NCBI GenBank assembly: GCA_022483015.1
Contig: JAKVOB010000001.1
Span: 124,001 to 188,000, forward strand
Length of the DNA: 64,000 bases
Origin: Atopobiaceae bacterium
Lineage (GTDB): Bacteria > Actinomycetota > Coriobacteriia > Coriobacteriales > Atopobiaceae
Direction: 5' to 3'
In this document: one piece after another, positions 4,711-58,469 of the stretch
Position numbering within the stretch: the first letter of the stretch is position 1
How the letters are laid out: the number at the start of each line of letters is the position of its first letter
Position numbers and translations under genes: made by a program
Notes under the pieces: generated by a model
Databases searched by the model: none
The model's input: only the letters and a program-made list of their open reading frames with translations
Told to the model about the DNA's origin: nothing

Positions 4711-5577
4711 ATGTCTGAGTACATCGTCGTCACCGAGAGCGGTTCGGACATCACCTGCGACTGCGCCGCCCGGGAGGGCATCGTCGTCGTCCCCATGCAC
4801 GTCACGTTCGGCGATGAGAGCCGGGACGATGACGGGAGCTTCGATCCCGAGGTCATCTACGACCACTACCGCACGACCGGCGAGCTGCCCCACACCTCGG
4901 GCTGCTCGCCCCATGACTTCGAGCTCGCCTTTGACCGCATCCACACCGAGCATCCGAGCGCACAGATCATCTACCTCGCCTACTCGGCCATCACCACGGT
5001 GAGCCATGCCTCCGCGTTGGTCGCAGCCGAGGGACGTGGCTATGTCCACGCCTACGACACCAAGAGCGTCTCGTCGGGCCTGCACATGGTCGTCACCAAC
5101 GTGGCCCGTTGGCTCCGCGCCAACCCTGACGTCACGATCGGCGAGGTCGATGCATTCGTGGCAGACCAGGTCGACCGCATCCGAATGGCCTTCATCCCCG
5201 GGGACCTTGATTACCTGCGCGCAGGCGGGCGCCTGTCGAACGCGGCCTTCCTGGGCGCCATGCTCCTCCGGATCAAGCCGACGGTCGAGATCGTCGATGG
5301 GCAGCTGGTCGCGACCGAGAAGCGCCGCGGCTCGATGTACAAGTGCTCGATCGACCTCACCGACCACTTCCTCGATCACGAGCCGCTCGACACCGGTCGT
5401 GTGACCTTCATCTACTCCGTCGGCGACAAGCCGGACCATCACATCCGTGCGGTGGTGGAGGGCATGGTGGGCCGTCGGGGGTTCGACGAGGTCGAGTGGG
5501 TCAAGACCGGCGCCATCATCTCGTCGCACTGCGGGCCTGGGGCCTTCGGCATCGTCGGACTCACCGCCAAGGCCTAG
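4711..5577 (+). CDS. DegV family protein
   Basis: 288-residue DegV-fold fatty-acid-binding protein. DegV proteins bind a single fatty acid and some act as FakB partners of the fatty acid kinase FakA. Seen here are the N-terminal VVTESGSDITCD segment, the HTSGCSPHDF motif (SQPSP-like region), and the C-terminal half with LDYLRAGGRLS and IKPTVEIVDGQL, typical of the family. A GAGGGAG ribosome site precedes the ATG. It is a single gene facing leuB divergently and leuD convergently; no fakA is in the window. Confidence 0.9.
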   Translation: MSEYIVVTESGSDITCDCAAREGIVVVPMHVTFGDESRDDDGSFDPEVIYDHYRTTGELPHTSGCSPHDFELAFDRIHTEHPSAQIIYLAYSAITTVSHASALVAAEGRGYVHAYDTKSVSSGLHMVVTNVARWLRANPDVTIGEVDAFVADQVDRIRMAFIPGDLDYLRAGGRLSNAAFLGAMLLRIKPTVEIVDGQLVATEKRRGSMYKCSIDLTDHFLDHEPLDTGRVTFIYSVGDKPDHHIRAVVEGMVGRRGFDEVEWVKTGAIISSHCGPGAFGIVGLTAKA

Positions 5578-28890: not shown

Positions 28891-30212
28891 AGGCAGCTCG
28901 CGCATCCCAGACCCTTGCGCTGCACGAGCGCCTTGGTGTCCTTCTCGGTGGCGACGGCCTCGACCATGAGGCGAGCCAGGTGACGGATGCCGTCGAAGCC
29001 CCAGAGCCCCCCGCCCTCGACCATGTCCACGAAATGTGGGGTGTCGAGCGCCCAGGCGGCCCACTGGCCTATCGCGAGCACGTCGCCCTCGCCCCCACGG
29101 GGACGCGTGCGCATGCGTGCCTGGACCATCGGATAGAGCATGAGGTCAGGTGCATGCTCGACGAGCCAGGCGGCATCGTCCGTCTCGTCGGGACGGACCG
29201 CGTCGAGGAAGGCCCATCGCACGTCGAAGCCATGCTCGAGCAGGAGGCGCGCAAGCCCGAGCGGGCGGGGATGCACGTTCTGGTCGATGGCCACGGGCAG
29301 GCCGGCGAGCGCCTCACGGGCCTGGTCCAGCGCGTCATCGGCCGCCGCCCGCAGGTCCGTGCAGTCGGGATGTGCCATCTCGAGCCCGTCTGCCAGCGCA
29401 TCGATCCCGTGGGCGATCTCGTCATACGAGAAGGACCCCGGCAGGTAGAGCAGGTCCGCGCCCAGGCGCCCGGCCAGGGCCTCGATGCCATGCCGCGCCG
29501 TGGGATAGGTGCAGACCATGAGCTGCGCCTCGGCCAGGTGCTGGTAGTCCGCATAGGTCGCGCACCCCTGGACCTGCCTGACCTCGCAGCCGGCATCCCG
29601 GGCGAGTCCCAGCAGGTCGGCCGTGTCGTCGAGGGCGAAGTCGCTGCCGAGCACGTCGACCACGCGCTCCTGGTGGGGACATGGTCGCAGGGGGTCGTAC
29701 ATGGACGCGCGCAGCTCCTGCTCGGGGGTGAGGTGCTCCTTCTGGCGGATGGGGTCCATCCAGCACTCGACGAAGTCCACGCCGGGGAAGCGCCCGCGTA
29801 GGGTCCGCATGACATAGGCCACGTCACACCCCGTGAAGCGGTGGACGCAGACCAGGAACAGCAGGACCACCGGCGGCAGCTCGTCGAGCTTGGCGAGGAC
29901 GTCGGCCACGCCGTCGATGGTGAAGCGCTCGAGGTCACCAGCCACGAGGTTCTTCTCGTCCAAGGCAACGAGCGAGAAGCGGTCGAGCTCCCCCATCTCG
30001 GCAGCCGTCATCACGACGCCGCGGACGCAGTTCTCGGCACAGACGTAAACCTGGTGCGCCTCGGGCACGAGCATGCCCGTGTGCACGATGTTCCAGGTCC
30101 CATGCACGGGGGCGTTGAACTCGAGGCCCTGCGAGAAGGGCCGCGGGAGCCGCGCGTCGGCCATGCGCACGCCGACGTCGGTGGGCACGGGCCGCATGAC
30201 CTGCGTCAGCAT
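28887..30212 (-). CDS. Nitrogenase component 1-like protein, long type (pair 2)
   Basis: 441-residue NifD/NifK-superfamily protein. P-cluster-like cysteines are Cys58 and Cys62 (VCAENCVRG) and Cys122 and Cys129 (FLVCVHRFTGCD); then PCPHQERVVDVLGSDF and QGCATYADYQHLAEAQLMVCTYPTARHG. It ends in GCASC, a possible extra Fe-S or metal site. Long and short proteins of this pair probably form a heteromer reduced by the NifH-like protein at 37653-38417. A GGGGGA site precedes ATG 30212, and the start overlaps the TM1266 gene end by 7 bases. It lacks the length of NifD/K and no FeMo-cofactor genes are present, so N2 fixation is not expected. Confidence 0.75.
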   Translation of the reverse strand: MLTQVMRPVPTDVGVRMADARLPRPFSQGLEFNAPVHGTWNIVHTGMLVPEAHQVYVCAENCVRGVVMTAAEMGELDRFSLVALDEKNLVAGDLERFTIDGVADVLAKLDELPPVVLLFLVCVHRFTGCDVAYVMRTLRGRFPGVDFVECWMDPIRQKEHLTPEQELRASMYDPLRPCPHQERVVDVLGSDFALDDTADLLGLARDAGCEVRQVQGCATYADYQHLAEAQLMVCTYPTARHGIEALAGRLGADLLYLPGSFSYDEIAHGIDALADGLEMAHPDCTDLRAAADDALDQAREALAGLPVAIDQNVHPRPLGLARLLLEHGFDVRWAFLDAVRPDETDDAAWLVEHAPDLMLYPMVQARMRTRPRGGEGDVLAIGQWAAWALDTPHFVDMVEGGGLWGFDGIRHLARLMVEAVATEKDTKALVQRKGLGCASCL

Positions 30213-30481
30213 GGTACGTCCCCCTCCTCGGGGGAGACCACGTTGGAGTAGGTGGCCTTGGCCGTCACGCCCGCGAGGCGCCCGAGCCTGCCCGAGAGCG
30301 TGTTGATCACGTCCTGCGGGGCATCGATGGCCACGCAGATGATGTTGACGCCCTTCTGCCGGTAGGGGATCCCCATGCGCCCGATGATGTAGCCCGCATC
30401 CTCCGAGAGGAGGTTGTTGAGCTCCTCGGTGTCGGCTCCCCCGCTGACGATGATCGAGACGATCGCGACCCTGGTCTCCAT
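30206..30481 (-). CDS. TM1266-family putative iron-only hydrogenase system regulator
   Basis: 91-residue small protein with an ACT/NikR-C-like beta-alpha-beta pattern (TRVAIVSIIVSGGADTEELNNLL, then YIIGRMGIPYRQKGVNIICVAIDAP). This matches the family usually found near hydE/F/G in [FeFe]-hydrogenase bearers and suggested to regulate them. It lies 9 bases downstream of hypE and overlaps the following long nitrogenase-like gene. Its presence links the whole unit to hydrogenase biology. Confidence 0.85.
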   Translation of the reverse strand: METRVAIVSIIVSGGADTEELNNLLSEDAGYIIGRMGIPYRQKGVNIICVAIDAPQDVINTLSGRLGRLAGVTAKATYSNVVSPEEGDVPC

Positions 30482-49815: not shown

Positions 49816-50040
49816 GGTTGACCCCCAACGTTTGATGGCTTTCGATACCTGTATATGTTAAATGAGTGTACTGTATCTTGTTTTCCAACTTGTTTCGCCA
49901 AGAAAGCCACAAGTTCGTCCGAAGCAGCAGGTGCGGTGACGGACCTTATGCAATACCGGTCAGGTCGGGCTCGAGTGGCTCTCCCCCGCACATCCTCAGG
50001 CACATGTCACGAAGCTCTGCTATAGTCGACCGCAATTGCA
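49816..50040. other. Divergent intergenic region, amino acid ABC operon / thiC
   Basis: The left part (49850-49910) is A+T-rich for this genome and should hold the minus-strand promoter of the ABC operon. On the right, an extended -10 (TGCTATAGT, 50018-50026) fits the thiC promoter, with transcription starting a few bases before the riboswitch. No gene seen. Confidence 0.55.
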
Positions 50041-50130
50041 TAGACGGGGAGCTTGCGACGGCAGGCTGAGAGGGAGCACATGCTCCGACCCAGGGAACCT
50101 GATGTGGATAATGCCAACGAAGGGATGCGC
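50041..50130 (+). promoter_or_regulatory. TPP riboswitch (THI element) of thiC
   Basis: Contains the conserved THI-box segments in order: GACGGGGAGC, GGCTGAGAGGGAG, a short variable hairpin, GACCCAGGGAACCTGATG and TGGATAATGCCAACGAAGGGAT. Its 3' end overlaps the AAGGGAT ribosome site, 5 bases before the thiC ATG, so thiamine pyrophosphate would block translation initiation. Confidence 0.95.
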
Positions 50131-50131
50131 T

Positions 50132-51430
50132 ATGACGCAGATCGATGCCGCACGTGCGGGAACCATCACAGAACAGATGAGGACGGTCGCCGCCGACGAG
50201 TATCGGGACGCCGGGTTCGTGCGCGAGGGCGTGGCGGCGGGACGCATCGCGATCCCCGCGAACCCAGCCCATGTGGGTCTCGCGCCCCGCGGCTTCGGGG
50301 CGGGCCTCCGCACCAAGGTCAACGTGAACCTCGGCATCTCGGGCGACATCCATGACGCCCCCACGGAGTGGGAGAAGGTCGACATCGCCGAGAGGTATGG
50401 GGCCGACGCCATCATGGACCTCTCCAACTCGGGCAAGACCCGCCGGTTCCGCCAGCAGCTCATCGGCCGCACCCCCCTGGCCGTCGGTACCGTCCCCATC
50501 TACGACGCCATCGGCTACCTCGACAAGCCCCTCGTCGAGCTCACGGCAGAGGACCTGCTCGGCGTCGTGCGGACCCACGCCGAGGACGGCGTCGACTTCA
50601 TGACCATCCATGCCGGCTTCAACCGCCGGGTGCTCGACACCTTCCTCGAGACGAAGCGACTCACCAACATCGTGAGCAGGGGCGGCTCGCTCCTCTTCGC
50701 CTGGATGATGACGACGGGCAACGAGAACCCCTTCTACGAGCACTTCGACGAGCTCCTCGCCATCCTCCACGAGCACGACGTGACCATCTCGCTCGGGGAC
50801 GCCATGCGTGGGGGAAGCACCTTCGACTCGACCGACGCCTCCGAGACGGCCGAGCTCGTCGAGCTGGGCAAGCTCACCACCCGCGCCTGGGACGCCGGGG
50901 TGCAGGTGGTGGTGGAGGGTCCCGGCCACATGGCACTGGACGAGGTGGCCGCCAACATGAAGCTCCAGAAGCGCCTCTGCCATGACGCCCCCTTCTACGT
51001 GTTGGGCCCGCTCGTCACCGATGTTGGCATGGGGTATGACCACATCACCGCTGCCATCGGGGGTGCCGTCGCTGCCGCATCCGGTGCCGATTGGCTCTGC
51101 TATGTGACCCCCGCAGAGCACCTCAGGCTCCCCGACGCACATGACGTGCGAGAGGGGCTCGTCGCCACGCGCATCGCCGCCCATGCGGCAGACATCGCCA
51201 AGGGCATCCCCCATGCCCGCGACGTCGACGACCGCATGAGTGACGCCCGCAGACGTGTCTCCTGGGAGGAGATGTTCGACTGCGCGCTCGACGGTGACCA
51301 TGCCCGCGAGGTCCTTGCCGAGGCACCCCCCGAGACCGAGGGCACCTGCACGATGTGCGGCAAGATGTGCGCCGCACGCACGGTCAACCGCATCATGGAT
51401 GGACTCACCGTAGACCTGGGAGAGAACTAG
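50132..51430 (+). CDS. thiC: Phosphomethylpyrimidine synthase
   Basis: 432 residues, the short anaerobe-type ThiC, a radical SAM enzyme turning AIR into HMP phosphate. Motifs: VNVNLGISGDIHD, MDLSNSGKTRRFRQQL, DFMTIHAGFNRR, RGGSLLFAWMM, VVEGPGHMALDE, and the C-terminal Cys array CTMCGKMCA (CX2CX4C type) for the [4Fe-4S] cluster. The start at 50132 directly follows the riboswitch. First gene of thiC-thiM-thiE-thiD. Confidence 0.95.
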   Translation: MTQIDAARAGTITEQMRTVAADEYRDAGFVREGVAAGRIAIPANPAHVGLAPRGFGAGLRTKVNVNLGISGDIHDAPTEWEKVDIAERYGADAIMDLSNSGKTRRFRQQLIGRTPLAVGTVPIYDAIGYLDKPLVELTAEDLLGVVRTHAEDGVDFMTIHAGFNRRVLDTFLETKRLTNIVSRGGSLLFAWMMTTGNENPFYEHFDELLAILHEHDVTISLGDAMRGGSTFDSTDASETAELVELGKLTTRAWDAGVQVVVEGPGHMALDEVAANMKLQKRLCHDAPFYVLGPLVTDVGMGYDHITAAIGGAVAAASGADWLCYVTPAEHLRLPDAHDVREGLVATRIAAHAADIAKGIPHARDVDDRMSDARRRVSWEEMFDCALDGDHAREVLAEAPPETEGTCTMCGKMCAARTVNRIMDGLTVDLGEN

Positions 51431-53768: not shown

Positions 53769-53829
53769 TTGACTGCATGTCGCTCGGCTCCTATACTCTC
53801 CATAATTCCTAGCTGCGTACTAGGATTAT
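53769..53829 (+). promoter_or_regulatory. Promoter and palindromic operator of the cystathionine lyase-type / cysteine synthase-type pair
   Basis: TTGACT (53769-53774), 17 bases, TATACT (53792-53797) is a good housekeeping promoter. Right after the -10 lies the dyad ATAATTCCTAG-N5-TACTAGGATTAT (53802-53829). The same CCTAG-N5-TACTAGG occurs at 56020-56036. The position suggests a repressor that blocks transcription. Confidence 0.7.
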
Positions 53830-55036: not shown

Positions 55037-55951
55037 ATGGGACATCACTACGAGTCCATGCACGAGCTGGTCGGGCACACGCCCATGGTGAGACTCAGCC
55101 ACGTGGGAGCGCCCGAGGGCGTGGGGCTCTTCGCGAAGCTCGAGCTCTGGAATCCCTCGGGCAGCGTGAAGGACCGGACGGGCATGTACATGGTCCAGGA
55201 CGCCGAGCGTCGGGGCCTACTCCATCCGGGCTCGACCATCGTGGAGGGGACCGCGGGCAACATGGGCCTAGGAATCGCCTTCGCAGCCCTGGGCAAGGGC
55301 TACCGCGTCATCTTCGTGGTGCCCGAGAAGTTCAGCGAGGAGAAGCAGACCCTCATGCGCGCCCTGGGCGCGGAGATCGTGAGCACATCCCAGGAAGGCG
55401 GAATGTCGGAAGCGGCCTCCAAGGCTGACGAGCTCGCGTCGAGCATCCCTGGAGCCGTGGCCTTAGGGCAGTTCCACAACCAGGCGAACCCGCAGGCCCA
55501 CTACGAGACCACGGGGCCCGAGATCTGGGACGACCTCGATGGGGACATCGACTGCTTTGTGGCCGGTGCCGGATCGGGAGGCACGTTCACCGGCATCATG
55601 CGACTCCTCAAGGAGAGGGACCCGAGCATCCGAGGGATCCTGGCCGACCCCGTGGGATCGACCATGGGTGGCGGCACGCATGCCGACTATGCCACCGAGG
55701 GCATCGGGAACGACTTCGTCGCCGAGACCATGGACATGTCACTCGTCGACAAGGTGGTCAAGGTCGATGACGAGAAGGCCTATGAGGGATCCCGTCTGCT
55801 CGCACGTGAGGAAGGCATCATCGCCGGTTCGAGCTCGGGAGCAGCCCTTGCCGCGGCCCTGGAGGTGGCACGGGGGATGCATGCGGGGACCGTGGTCACG
55901 CTGTTCCCCGACCGTGGGGATCGCTACTTCAGCAAGCATCTGTTCGCCTAG
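55037..55951 (+). CDS. Cysteine synthase / cystathionine beta-synthase-type PLP enzyme
   Basis: 304-residue fold-type II PLP enzyme. The lysine is in NPSGSVKDRTGMY, the loop normally TSGNTG is TAGNMG (GTAGNMGLGIAFAA), with AGAGSGGTFTGIMRLLKE and GIIAGSSSGAALAAAL. Without CBS domains, it resembles CysK/MccA. Paired with the gamma-lyase-type gene, an O-acetylserine-dependent cystathionine beta-synthase (MccA) is the favoured reading. The Thr-to-Met change in the substrate loop could alter specificity. Confidence 0.87.
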   Translation: MGHHYESMHELVGHTPMVRLSHVGAPEGVGLFAKLELWNPSGSVKDRTGMYMVQDAERRGLLHPGSTIVEGTAGNMGLGIAFAALGKGYRVIFVVPEKFSEEKQTLMRALGAEIVSTSQEGGMSEAASKADELASSIPGAVALGQFHNQANPQAHYETTGPEIWDDLDGDIDCFVAGAGSGGTFTGIMRLLKERDPSIRGILADPVGSTMGGGTHADYATEGIGNDFVAETMDMSLVDKVVKVDDEKAYEGSRLLAREEGIIAGSSSGAALAAALEVARGMHAGTVVTLFPDRGDRYFSKHLFA

Positions 55952-55974
55952 GAATGGCGATGTGCAGAGAGTGC

Positions 55975-56038
55975 TTGACAGGGCACGGCACGAGTGGCAT
56001 CCTGTTCATCACATTAATTCCTAGTACATTACTAGGTG
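55975..56038 (+). promoter_or_regulatory. Promoter and palindromic operator upstream of the Met/Cys leader peptide
   Basis: TTGACA (55975-55980), 17 bases, CATCCT (55998-56003) as promoter. CCTAGTA-CAT-TACTAGG (56020-56036) inside AATTCCTAG...is the same operator as at 53808-53824, with identical half-site spacing. A shared regulator of both transcripts is inferred. Confidence 0.65.
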
Positions 56039-56076
56039 TTAGTGAACGACCAAGACGACATGAGAGGAGCGGCACC

Positions 56077-56151
56077 ATGAGCAACGTGACATCGGGCACA
56101 GAGAGGAAGATGCGCATGTGCATGTGTGGCATGATGCCGCACACACCATAG
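56077..56151 (+). CDS. Met/Cys-rich leader peptide
   Basis: 24-codon frame with GAGAGGAG 8 bases before its ATG. The second half reads KMRMCMCGMM, i.e. five internal Met and two Cys in ten codons. It is followed 60 bases later by a terminator and then by a hydrolase gene. This is the layout of ribosome-mediated attenuation sensing methionine and cysteine. An alternative, a small metal-binding peptide, is less likely because of the terminator. Confidence 0.72.
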   Translation: MSNVTSGTERKMRMCMCGMMPHTP

Positions 56152-56235
56152 GCCACTCTTCCACAACCAACGGTTGCGCCCGAGTGACCTCGGGGCCGCA
56201 GCCACCGTAGCAGCCCGCACACCGCGGGCTTTTTC
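56152..56235 (+). terminator. Attenuator: antiterminator-type hairpins and intrinsic terminator
   Basis: A long imperfect hairpin (ACGGT at 56170 with ACCGT at about 56204, core CCCGAG-TGAC-CTCGGG) precedes a classic terminator: AGCCCGC (56212-56218), 5-base loop, GCGGGCT (56224-56230) and a T-run TTTTTC. The terminator stands 31 bases before the next start codon, so read-through is needed for the cyclase and permease genes. Confidence 0.75.
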
Positions 56236-56265
56236 TTACCGATCACACTTGAGAGGAATGACGAC

Positions 56266-57030
56266 ATGAGCCTTCTGGACACATTCGAACGGCTGGAACG
56301 GTACCGATGGGTCGAGCTCTCGCACCACCTCGATGACGACTCCCCCTACTGGGGAGGGCTCGACGAGGGCGCCGTGGAGATAGGCAGGACGGTGCTCGAC
56401 TTCGATTCCGACGTACTCTCCTGCCTGATCCAGACCTTCAAGTTCCCAGGCCAGTTCGGGACGCACGTCGACTTTCCCGGTCACTTCGTCAAGGGAGGGA
56501 AGCTCTCCGATGCCTATGACCAGAAGCAGCTCGTCTTTCCCCTGGTAGTCATCGACATCTCCGACAAGGTCTCCAAGTCCCCCGACTACGAGCTGACCCT
56601 TGACGACATCCATGAGCACGAGTCGAGGCACGGCATCATCCCGGCCGGATCCTTCGTAGCCCTTCGGACCGACTGGTACAAGCGTTGGCCGAGTGGTGAT
56701 GCCCTTGCGAACCTTGACGAGACAGGCCACGAGCACGCGCCTGGCTGGACGATCGAGACCCTTAGGTTCCTGTTCGAGGAGCGAGGGGTCAAGGGAACGG
56801 GCCACGAGACGTTGGACACCGACGCATCCGTGGGGGCCGAACGCACAGGTGACCTGGTCGCAGAGCGTTTCGTCCTGCAGCAGGGCAAGATCCAGATCGA
56901 GCTTCTCGCGAACCTCGATCAGGTACCCGCGACAGGCGCCGTCCTCTTCGCCTCGGTACCGCGGATAGATGGGGCCACGGGACTTCCGGCTCGCGTATGG
57001 GCAATCGTCGACGATGGTAACGAGGAGTAG
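56266..57030 (+). CDS. Cyclase-family (kynurenine formamidase-like) metal hydrolase
   Basis: 254 residues of the PF04199-type cyclase/formamidase family. Metal-binding signature QFGTHVDFPGHF (HxGTHxDxPxH-like), plus GSFVALRTDWYKRWP and GHETLDTDAS with further ligands. Members open amide/formamide or ring bonds. A role on a sulfur amino acid derivative is inferred from the leader peptide and the adjacent permease. Six bases before the permease gene, so one transcript. Confidence 0.83.
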   Translation: MSLLDTFERLERYRWVELSHHLDDDSPYWGGLDEGAVEIGRTVLDFDSDVLSCLIQTFKFPGQFGTHVDFPGHFVKGGKLSDAYDQKQLVFPLVVIDISDKVSKSPDYELTLDDIHEHESRHGIIPAGSFVALRTDWYKRWPSGDALANLDETGHEHAPGWTIETLRFLFEERGVKGTGHETLDTDASVGAERTGDLVAERFVLQQGKIQIELLANLDQVPATGAVLFASVPRIDGATGLPARVWAIVDDGNEE

Positions 57031-57035
57031 AGATC

Positions 57036-58469
57036 ATGGCTGAGACTTCATCTACTGGAACGCTTCATAAGGATGCACTTGGTTTCTTCGAGGTGATTGC
57101 CCTCTCCGTGGCAATACTTGCGCCCACGTTCGCCTCTTCGATGAACTTCGGTATGATCGCCGCGGATGCAGGGTCATCGGTGAGCCTCGTCTTCGTCATC
57201 TCGGTGGTCTCCCTTCTCTTCGTAGCGACGGCCTTCGTCAAGTTCGGGTCGAGATACTCCTCGGCAGGTTCGGCCTACACCTATATCGAGGTCGGCCTGG
57301 GAAAGCATGTCGGTGCCCTCAGCGGCTGGGCGCTCCTGCTCACCTACACTTGCTGGACGGCCGGCTGCTCGTCGGCCTTTGGTTACCTGTTCGGCCAGTT
57401 CGTGCTCGAGCTGACCGGCATCGACATCTCCTGGGTCGTCTTCACGCTCCTCGCGCTTGCGGGGATATGGTACATAACGTATTCCGACGTACACCTGAGC
57501 ACACGCCTCATGCTCGTGGTGGAGCTCATCGCTGTGGCCCTGCTCCTGGTAGGTCTCATCTCCATCGCAGTGCAGGTGGCTGGGACGACCGGTCTGAGCA
57601 TCGCTCCGTTCCAGACGTCCGGGGACACCACGGCCACGGGCATCGGTACCGGCATGGTTGCCGCTATCCTGAGCTTCGGCGGGTTCGAAGGGGCTGCCAG
57701 CCTGGGCGAGGAGACGAGGAACCCTCACAAGTACATCCCGGTCGCCATCCTGAGCACCGTCATCTTCGCTGGCATCGTCTATGTCTTCGTCAGCTTCGTC
57801 GAGGTGAACGCCTACGGTCTCTCGCCAGAGGGTATCGCCGCCTTCGCCTCATCGGGTTCTGCTGTGGTGGAGCTCTCCTCACGCTACCTGAGTCCGACGT
57901 TCACCACGATCATCACGTTGTTCATCAGCATCTCGGCCTTCTCGACGGCACTGGGGTCGATGACTGCAAGCTCACGCGTCCTCTACCAGCTGGCAAAGGA
58001 TGGTAAGGCGCCTATCTCGCTCGGGAAGGTCCATCCCCGCCATCAGACCCCTTCCGTGGCAGACGGTGTCATCACCGTCGTCGCAGTGGCAACCGTTCTC
58101 GCGGTCTTCCTCGGGTCCGGTGCCACCATCGACGGCTTCCTCGTGTTCCAGTACGTCGGCACCATAGGCACCATCGCGCTCGTACTCGTCTATCTGCTCA
58201 CCTGCATAGCCGCGATTGCCGAGTTCGGGGTCAAGAGCCACGAGTGGACCTGGCAGAACATCTTCCCGGCCGCTGGCAGCGTCTTGTTGGCCTACGTGCT
58301 GTGGGCCAACGTGGCCCCCGATGCCCTCGAGTTCCCCTTCAACATCTTCCCCTTCGTCGTCATAGCGTTCCTCGCCGCAGGCTACGCAGTGACGAGCATC
58401 ATCTGGAGGAGAAGCTCGACCGACCCGCAGGTCAGCACGAGCGCAGAGGGCGCGACCTCACAGGCCTGA
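57036..58469 (+). CDS. APC-family amino acid permease
   Basis: 477 residues, twelve predicted helices, APC superfamily. The N-terminal ALGFFEVIALSVAILAPTFASSMNFGMIAADAG has the unwound helix-1 signature and FGGFEGAASLGEETRNPHKYIPVAIL is the classic helix 6/loop motif. Probably imports an amino acid or derivative. Co-transcribed with the cyclase-like gene and controlled by the Met/Cys attenuator, so a sulfur-containing substrate is suspected. Confidence 0.9.
   Translation: MAETSSTGTLHKDALGFFEVIALSVAILAPTFASSMNFGMIAADAGSSVSLVFVISVVSLLFVATAFVKFGSRYSSAGSAYTYIEVGLGKHVGALSGWALLLTYTCWTAGCSSAFGYLFGQFVLELTGIDISWVVFTLLALAGIWYITYSDVHLSTRLMLVVELIAVALLLVGLISIAVQVAGTTGLSIAPFQTSGDTTATGIGTGMVAAILSFGGFEGAASLGEETRNPHKYIPVAILSTVIFAGIVYVFVSFVEVNAYGLSPEGIAAFASSGSAVVELSSRYLSPTFTTIITLFISISAFSTALGSMTASSRVLYQLAKDGKAPISLGKVHPRHQTPSVADGVITVVAVATVLAVFLGSGATIDGFLVFQYVGTIGTIALVLVYLLTCIAAIAEFGVKSHEWTWQNIFPAAGSVLLAYVLWANVAPDALEFPFNIFPFVVIAFLAAGYAVTSIIWRRSSTDPQVSTSAEGATSQA

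Follow-up and report, generated by a model that had tools for sequence, protein, structure and literature searches.

The window analyzed here, the whole 64,000-nucleotide stretch of contig JAKVOB010000001.1, contains a cystathionine gamma-lyase/synthase-type gene (CGL) and a cystathionine beta-synthase-type gene (CBS), followed on the same strand by a predicted hydrolase-permease operon. A short leader ORF and an intrinsic terminator precede the hydrolase gene. The promoter-like sites and the leader ORF were read from the sequence, the Met/Cys codon run came from a density scan, the RNA segments and the antiterminator are predicted folds, and the enzymes and the permease were assigned with Pfam, for the hydrolase and the permease also from solved structures. 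The features are as follows.

53769-53797, plus strand: promoter-like TTGACT-17-TATACT of the CGL-CBS operon
53808-53824, no strand: palindrome CCTAGctgcgtaCTAGG before CGL, the first of three in the genome
53854-55035, plus strand: cystathionine gamma-lyase/synthase-type PLP enzyme (CGL, PF01053), preceded by the palindrome
55037-55951, plus strand: cysteine synthase/cystathionine beta-synthase-type PLP enzyme (CBS, PF00291)
55975-56003, plus strand: promoter-like TTGACA-17-CATCCT before the leader, with a weak -10
56020-56036, no strand: palindrome CCTAGTACATTACTAGG (pattern CCTAG-N7-CTAGG) upstream of the leader, putative Rrf2/CymR-like operator
56062-56069, plus strand: Shine-Dalgarno sequence GAGAGGAG of the leader ORF, 7 bases 5' of the ATG
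56077-56151, plus strand: leader ORF MSNVTSGTERKMRMCMCGMMPHTP, 24 codons and a stop
56104-56162, plus strand: segment 1:2, predicted long hairpin that includes the stop codon as well as the Met/Cys run
56110-56136, plus strand: Met/Cys codon run MRMCMCGMM
56150-56190, plus strand: segment 2:3, predicted pairing between AGGCCACTC (56150-56158) and GAGTGACCT (56182-56190) that a ribosome on the stop codon would prevent
56172-56203, plus strand: segment 3:4, predicted hairpin GGTTGCGCCCGAG/CTCGGGGCCGCAGCC, which can form together with the terminator
56193-56216, plus strand: putative antiterminator, predicted to overlap the 5' arm of the terminator
56212-56235, plus strand: intrinsic terminator, stem AGCCCGC-ACACC-GCGGGCT at 56212-56230, then a T run
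56266-57030, plus strand: cyclase-family (PF04199) hydrolase, isatin hydrolase-like
57036-58469, plus strand: APC amino acid permease (PF13520)

The preliminary description had proposed a 24-residue Met/Cys peptide and a terminator with a T run before the cyclase-family gene, and both were located in the sequence: the peptide exactly at 56077-56151 behind a good Shine-Dalgarno sequence, and the terminator with its stem at 56212-56230. The locus contains two elements of an attenuator, namely, a short ORF that can be translated and in which the codons to be sensed are clustered, and an intrinsic terminator between this ORF and the structural gene. Met and Cys make up 7 of the 9 residues of MRMCMCGMM (five Met and two Cys codons), and no other run in the six frames of the 64-kb window reached this density, the next best having 5. 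When the region 56037-56266 was shuffled with its dinucleotides preserved, an SD-preceded ORF with an equally dense Met/Cys run arose in none of 20,000 shuffles. A longer in-frame ORF starting at 55954 was dropped, since it would cross both the promoter-like site and the palindrome. A scan of the window gave no Rfam match over the leader, which thus resembles no known riboswitch or T-box model. The sole Rfam match in the window was a TPP riboswitch at 50035-50142, just above the gathering score.

The pattern CCTAG-N7-CTAGG occurs three times in the 2.28-Mb genome: before the window leader, before the CGL-CBS operon, and at G000:C1:734848 (locus L104), next to a methionine-type ABC transporter. 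All three copies lie directly 3' of a promoter-like TTGAC(A/T)-17 nt-(T/C)A.., a position that suits a repressor blocking transcription. A palindromic site before several sulfur operons is what a CymR-type regulon would display. CymR of Bacillus is an Rrf2 repressor of cysteine genes, and its site at B. subtilis cysK is CATAATACCAATACAAATAGTCGGAAATTG (PMC11487621). Compared with this site (CATAATACCAATAC...GTCGGAAATTG), the palindrome described here (CATAATTCCTAG...CTAGGATTATG) has a similar outer layout but a different core. Three Rrf2 proteins in the genome scored above the Pfam cut-off (G000:C1:2219-2611, 638635-639030, and 30072-30470); the one at 2219-2611 adjoins a sufS-type desulfurase, and its matches to the IscR and CymR models fall short of the cut-off in each case. 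The regulator of the palindrome is probably a CymR-like member of the Rrf2 family but may also be an IscR-like or unrelated protein. To our knowledge, no CymR target carries a Met/Cys leader.

A palindrome scan of 140 genomes of the family revealed that the bare 10-base pattern is unspecific, control patterns being equally frequent in some genomes. Palindromes with AATT-like flanks were found before CGL (L150, L152, L169, and L170), before cysK (L177, L178, and L182), and before metY-like genes (L179 and L180). At L163 and L173, where ABC transporter genes are close by, the palindrome lies directly 5' of lipoproteins predicted to bind substrates; these loci possibly encode importers of sulfur compounds.

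The locus L104, which was picked by its palindrome alone, contains a second ORF of this kind. Here, MTSHTSNKRDVFMVGRLPLCYGHFRIERMMCSRMCCSTHR lies 5' of a metN-like gene, for which the best NCBIfam model was TIGR02314 MetN with a score under the model cut-off. The Met/Cys run of this leader, ...ERMMCSRMCCSTHR, was matched in 0 of 20,000 shuffles, and the starts of both leaders have GAGAGGNG...CCATGANCANC in common. No obvious intrinsic terminator was found for the second leader. In our view, nothing supports Met/Cys leaders as a genuine trait of this genome's sulfur regulon more strongly than this second leader. An FMN riboswitch (L105:803-941, minus strand) precedes a membrane protein gene that diverges from the metN-like operon.

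As a pattern, the exact Met/Cys run was confined to this genome among the 140 genomes of the family and 397 genomes of the order, and none of the other MCMCxM matches in these sets was leader-like. Related leaders with Cys or mixed Met/Cys codons (CACCCIC, MCCQMCC, and CMWCMC) were found before cysK and CGL, several of them following the same palindrome. Leaders located 3' of flanked palindromes include GTG-MLKQIACACWCICPQAARLCA, MLKQITCACCCICPQAARLCA, and MKSFANISCMWCMCAVPGSTMA, and those of CGL are of types MENLAYTSALATRACCTFTGCRR and HARLVHWVRACCCLAHI. Upstream of cysK (76 loci), we found MCCQMCC in three genomes (L263, L265, and L274), CCTCAVPGS-type leaders at L277, L282, and L293, CIAPCCC leaders at L261 and L278, and TTCACCICTQAARLCA at L270. 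The three MCCQMCC leaders keep the core MCCQMCCHNAWLSP while their N termini vary, and they represent another type of mixed Met/Cys leader. Under one fixed rule, a dense Cys or Met/Cys run preceded cysK at 9 of the 76 loci, compared to 0.29 loci on average, and never more than 3, across 200 shuffled sets; because the genomes are related, the nine cases correspond to perhaps five or six independent ones. Dense runs also lay 3' of 5 of 17 palindromes, a list biased by having been picked partly from loci with known leaders.

The fold of the leader RNA was more stable than those of its own shuffles (z = -4.8). In our model, the ribosome masks 12 nt, counted from the first base of its A-site codon, which is consistent with the 26-nt footprint assumed for the Mycobacterium tuberculosis ilvB1 attenuator (PMC13236596). 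In equilibrium folding, the probability of the terminator was at least 0.94 at every ribosome position, and no ribosome-dependent switch was seen for the window leader. The hairpin at 56172-56203 had initially been taken for the alternative to the terminator, a role that did not hold up, as the two coexist at equilibrium. According to the folding, the actual competitor is a second conformer, in which 56150-56158 pairs with 56182-56190 and the antiterminator at 56193-56216 ties up the 5' arm of the terminator. As long as the 3' arm of the terminator has yet to be transcribed, this conformer is the best one (-24.1 kcal/mol) once 56137-56146 and the bases beyond are exposed, and it is impossible with a ribosome at the stop codon covering 56150-56158. 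The mean probability of such a transient antiterminator was 0.42 for stalls within the run versus 0.12 at the stop codon, a difference equalled in 25 of 300 spacer shuffles (8%). These modelled values are suggestive and compatible with a ribosome-dependent switch, short of proof, and we regard a terminator switch in the window leader as plausible.

The same equilibrium procedure was applied to leaders of the family. For L177, L178, L270, and L261, the predicted probability of the terminator was about 0 at early Cys codons and exceeded 0.9 at the stop codon, such that, in the model, these leaders behave as clean textbook Cys-stall attenuators. L265 and L274, which carry the conserved MCCQMCC leader, showed no switch in equilibrium folding. 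Because these leaders fail too, failing the equilibrium test is weak evidence.

Among solved structures, isatin hydrolases are closest to the hydrolase behind the window leader, and the best solved relative of the permease is the cystine/glutamate transporter xCT, a distant match. The closest hydrolases share 54 to 60% identity with the window enzyme and have no adjacent permease; among 16 hydrolase relatives from the family and 80 others, none had the permease next door. The upstream regions of the family relatives contained no such Met/Cys leader, and no sulfur riboswitch was found at 35 loci of hydrolase relatives. Among the 397 genomes of the order, there was no close relative of the permease, the single 36% relative being without a Met/Cys leader, and no orthologous operon. 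The pair is private to this genome, and since no copy occurs elsewhere in the order, it is probably a late arrival. We know of no established sulfur substrate for this hydrolase family. A role in the salvage of a sulfur amino acid derivative would fit the regulon. The pair is a candidate for taking up and salvaging a sulfur compound. In three Lachnospiraceae-type genomes (L032, L035, and L062), an FMN riboswitch lies directly 3' of the cyclase-family gene, near 4871-5006.

Taken together, we think it probable that the leader acts as a ribosome-mediated attenuator for sulfur amino acids and is itself governed by a sulfur operator, giving the hydrolase-permease operon two layers of control. At the first layer, a putative CymR-like Rrf2 regulator would bind the palindrome near the transcription start under an ample supply of sulfur amino acids, and it would also control the CGL-CBS operon and the methionine-type ABC transporter. 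At the second layer, the Met/Cys leader would be translated once transcription has started. If Met-tRNA or Cys-tRNA ran short, the ribosome would pause in the run, and AGGCCACTC would stay uncovered and could pair with GAGTGACCT; the strand that follows would thereby become available for the antiterminator at 56193-56216, and transcription would go on. With both tRNAs plentiful, a ribosome at the stop codon would cover AGGCCACTC, and the hairpin at 56172-56203 and the terminator would form. In this scheme we infer the identity of the regulator, leader translation, stalling, antitermination, and the read-out of both amino acids. The earlier proposal of a Met/Cys-sensing leader was thus supported in part: the shared operator, the second leader, and the Cys and Met/Cys leaders of the family speak strongly and independently for it. 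The points against the attenuator reading are the equilibrium folding without a switch, the spacer shuffles that equal the transient difference, the restriction of the exact run to this genome, the lack of an orthologous operon in the order, a hydrolase family with no established sulfur substrate and no sulfur riboswitch at its relatives, and a second leader with no obvious intrinsic terminator.

We weighed four other explanations for these observations. The closest is a narrower version of the attenuator reading, in which only the two Cys codons are regulatory and Met is neutral, as in the cysK leaders. Most related leaders contain Cys only, and an otherwise CCTCAVPGS-like leader (L208) has Met in place of Cys, suggesting that Met may be a tolerated filler. 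Five Met codons in nine speak against neutrality, however, as do the Met codons of the second leader and the retention of Met in the MCCQMCC leaders of three genomes, and we consider a sensor of Cys alone unlikely, if worth serious attention. It is rather less probable still that the repressor of the palindrome controls the operon alone, with a leader that may be translated and a terminator acting at a fixed rate, as might be the case for a recently acquired operon. Such control would agree with the equilibrium folding, which lacks a ribosome-dependent switch, and with the recently acquired look of the hydrolase and permease, but chance would not be expected to produce a run this dense behind a good Shine-Dalgarno sequence, and another Met/Cys leader follows the same palindrome elsewhere in the genome.

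Instead of sensing through its codons, the run might encode a small thiol/thioether peptide that itself has a role in metal or redox binding, or one that arrests the ribosome in a redox-sensitive manner. Although the CMC spacing could bind metal, the two leaders are hardly alike outside the run and the relatives vary in sequence yet retain Cys and Met codons, which makes a functional peptide very unlikely. The terminator might also belong to the upstream CGL-CBS operon, on whose strand it lies 0.26 kb 3' of CBS, with a chance ORF before it. A promoter-like site and a palindrome stand between CBS and the leader, however, and the shuffles exclude a chance ORF; we therefore regard this last explanation as extremely improbable. 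The preferred reading remains the ribosome-mediated attenuator under a sulfur operator.

Cysteine-responsive short ORFs are known from mycobacteria (Canestrari et al. 2020, cited by PMC13236596; also PMC4633059), in agreement with the preliminary description, which had set these poly-Cys leaders apart from a mixed Met/Cys leader that it considered new in this gene context. In both cases, a short ORF with a Cys run precedes sulfur genes and is proposed to stall ribosomes at low Cys. The mycobacterial ORFs are leaderless, poly-Cys, and described as translational attenuators, whereas the window leader is SD-led, has mixed Met/Cys codons, ends before an intrinsic terminator, and lies behind an operator that other operons share. 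For Actinobacteria, Seliverstov et al. 2005 (PMC1262725) describe Cys leader peptides 5' of cys operons and cbs, similarly with Cys runs near the stop codon. In that study, the Cys leaders lacked terminators and methionine genes of Actinobacteria showed no sign of RNA control; its accessible passages name neither Coriobacteriia nor Cys leaders containing Met. The uORFC-8-2 cysS attenuator of Rhodobacterales (PMC8632094) resembles the window leader in its two tandem Cys codons, intrinsic terminator, and transcription attenuation but belongs to another phylum and to a cysS gene, with no Met codons reported. The assumed novelty was borne out insofar as we found no report of Met-codon or mixed Met/Cys leaders in the open literature, which was the part covered. 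Cys leaders are thus known in a few bacterial groups, and the mixture of Met and Cys codons is the new variant here.

More generally, sulfur assimilation in Coriobacteriia may be controlled by a shared operator together with leader peptides of mixed Met and Cys codons, each leader summing the supply of Met and Cys, and operons newly captured into the regulon, like the one described here, may acquire such a leader, a tentative idea to which we give somewhat less than an even chance. The related leaders, some with textbook switches, provide a ready list for asking whether one leader integrates two amino acids.

Further conserved leaders were observed before sulfur genes of the family. In about 16 genomes, a near-invariant GATGCCCAAGCCCGGGCA...GACCGGGCG lies about 90 to 190 bases 5' of metN (L109, L110, L113, L115, L117-L119, L121-L123, L126, L127, L129, L131, L132, and L134), usually after an in-frame Met run such as MKSAVAHITMMMVMEMPKPGHS. 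Because GACCGGGCG is in another frame or after the stop codon in L117 and L119, conservation seems to extend to the RNA and not to the peptide alone. The sampled loci gave no Rfam match, and this element is possibly an undescribed methionine-sensing leader RNA. Before metY-like genes (L179, L180, and L181), we found the same ATGCCCAAGCCCG core within MKKKHxYNRLICLGLFMPKPEL(C/S), followed directly by a stop codon; these leaders lie 3' of a CCTAG-N7-CTAGG site and are followed by a CTCGGGC hairpin. A looser form of the ATGCCCAAGCCCG leader is present at L183:2080.
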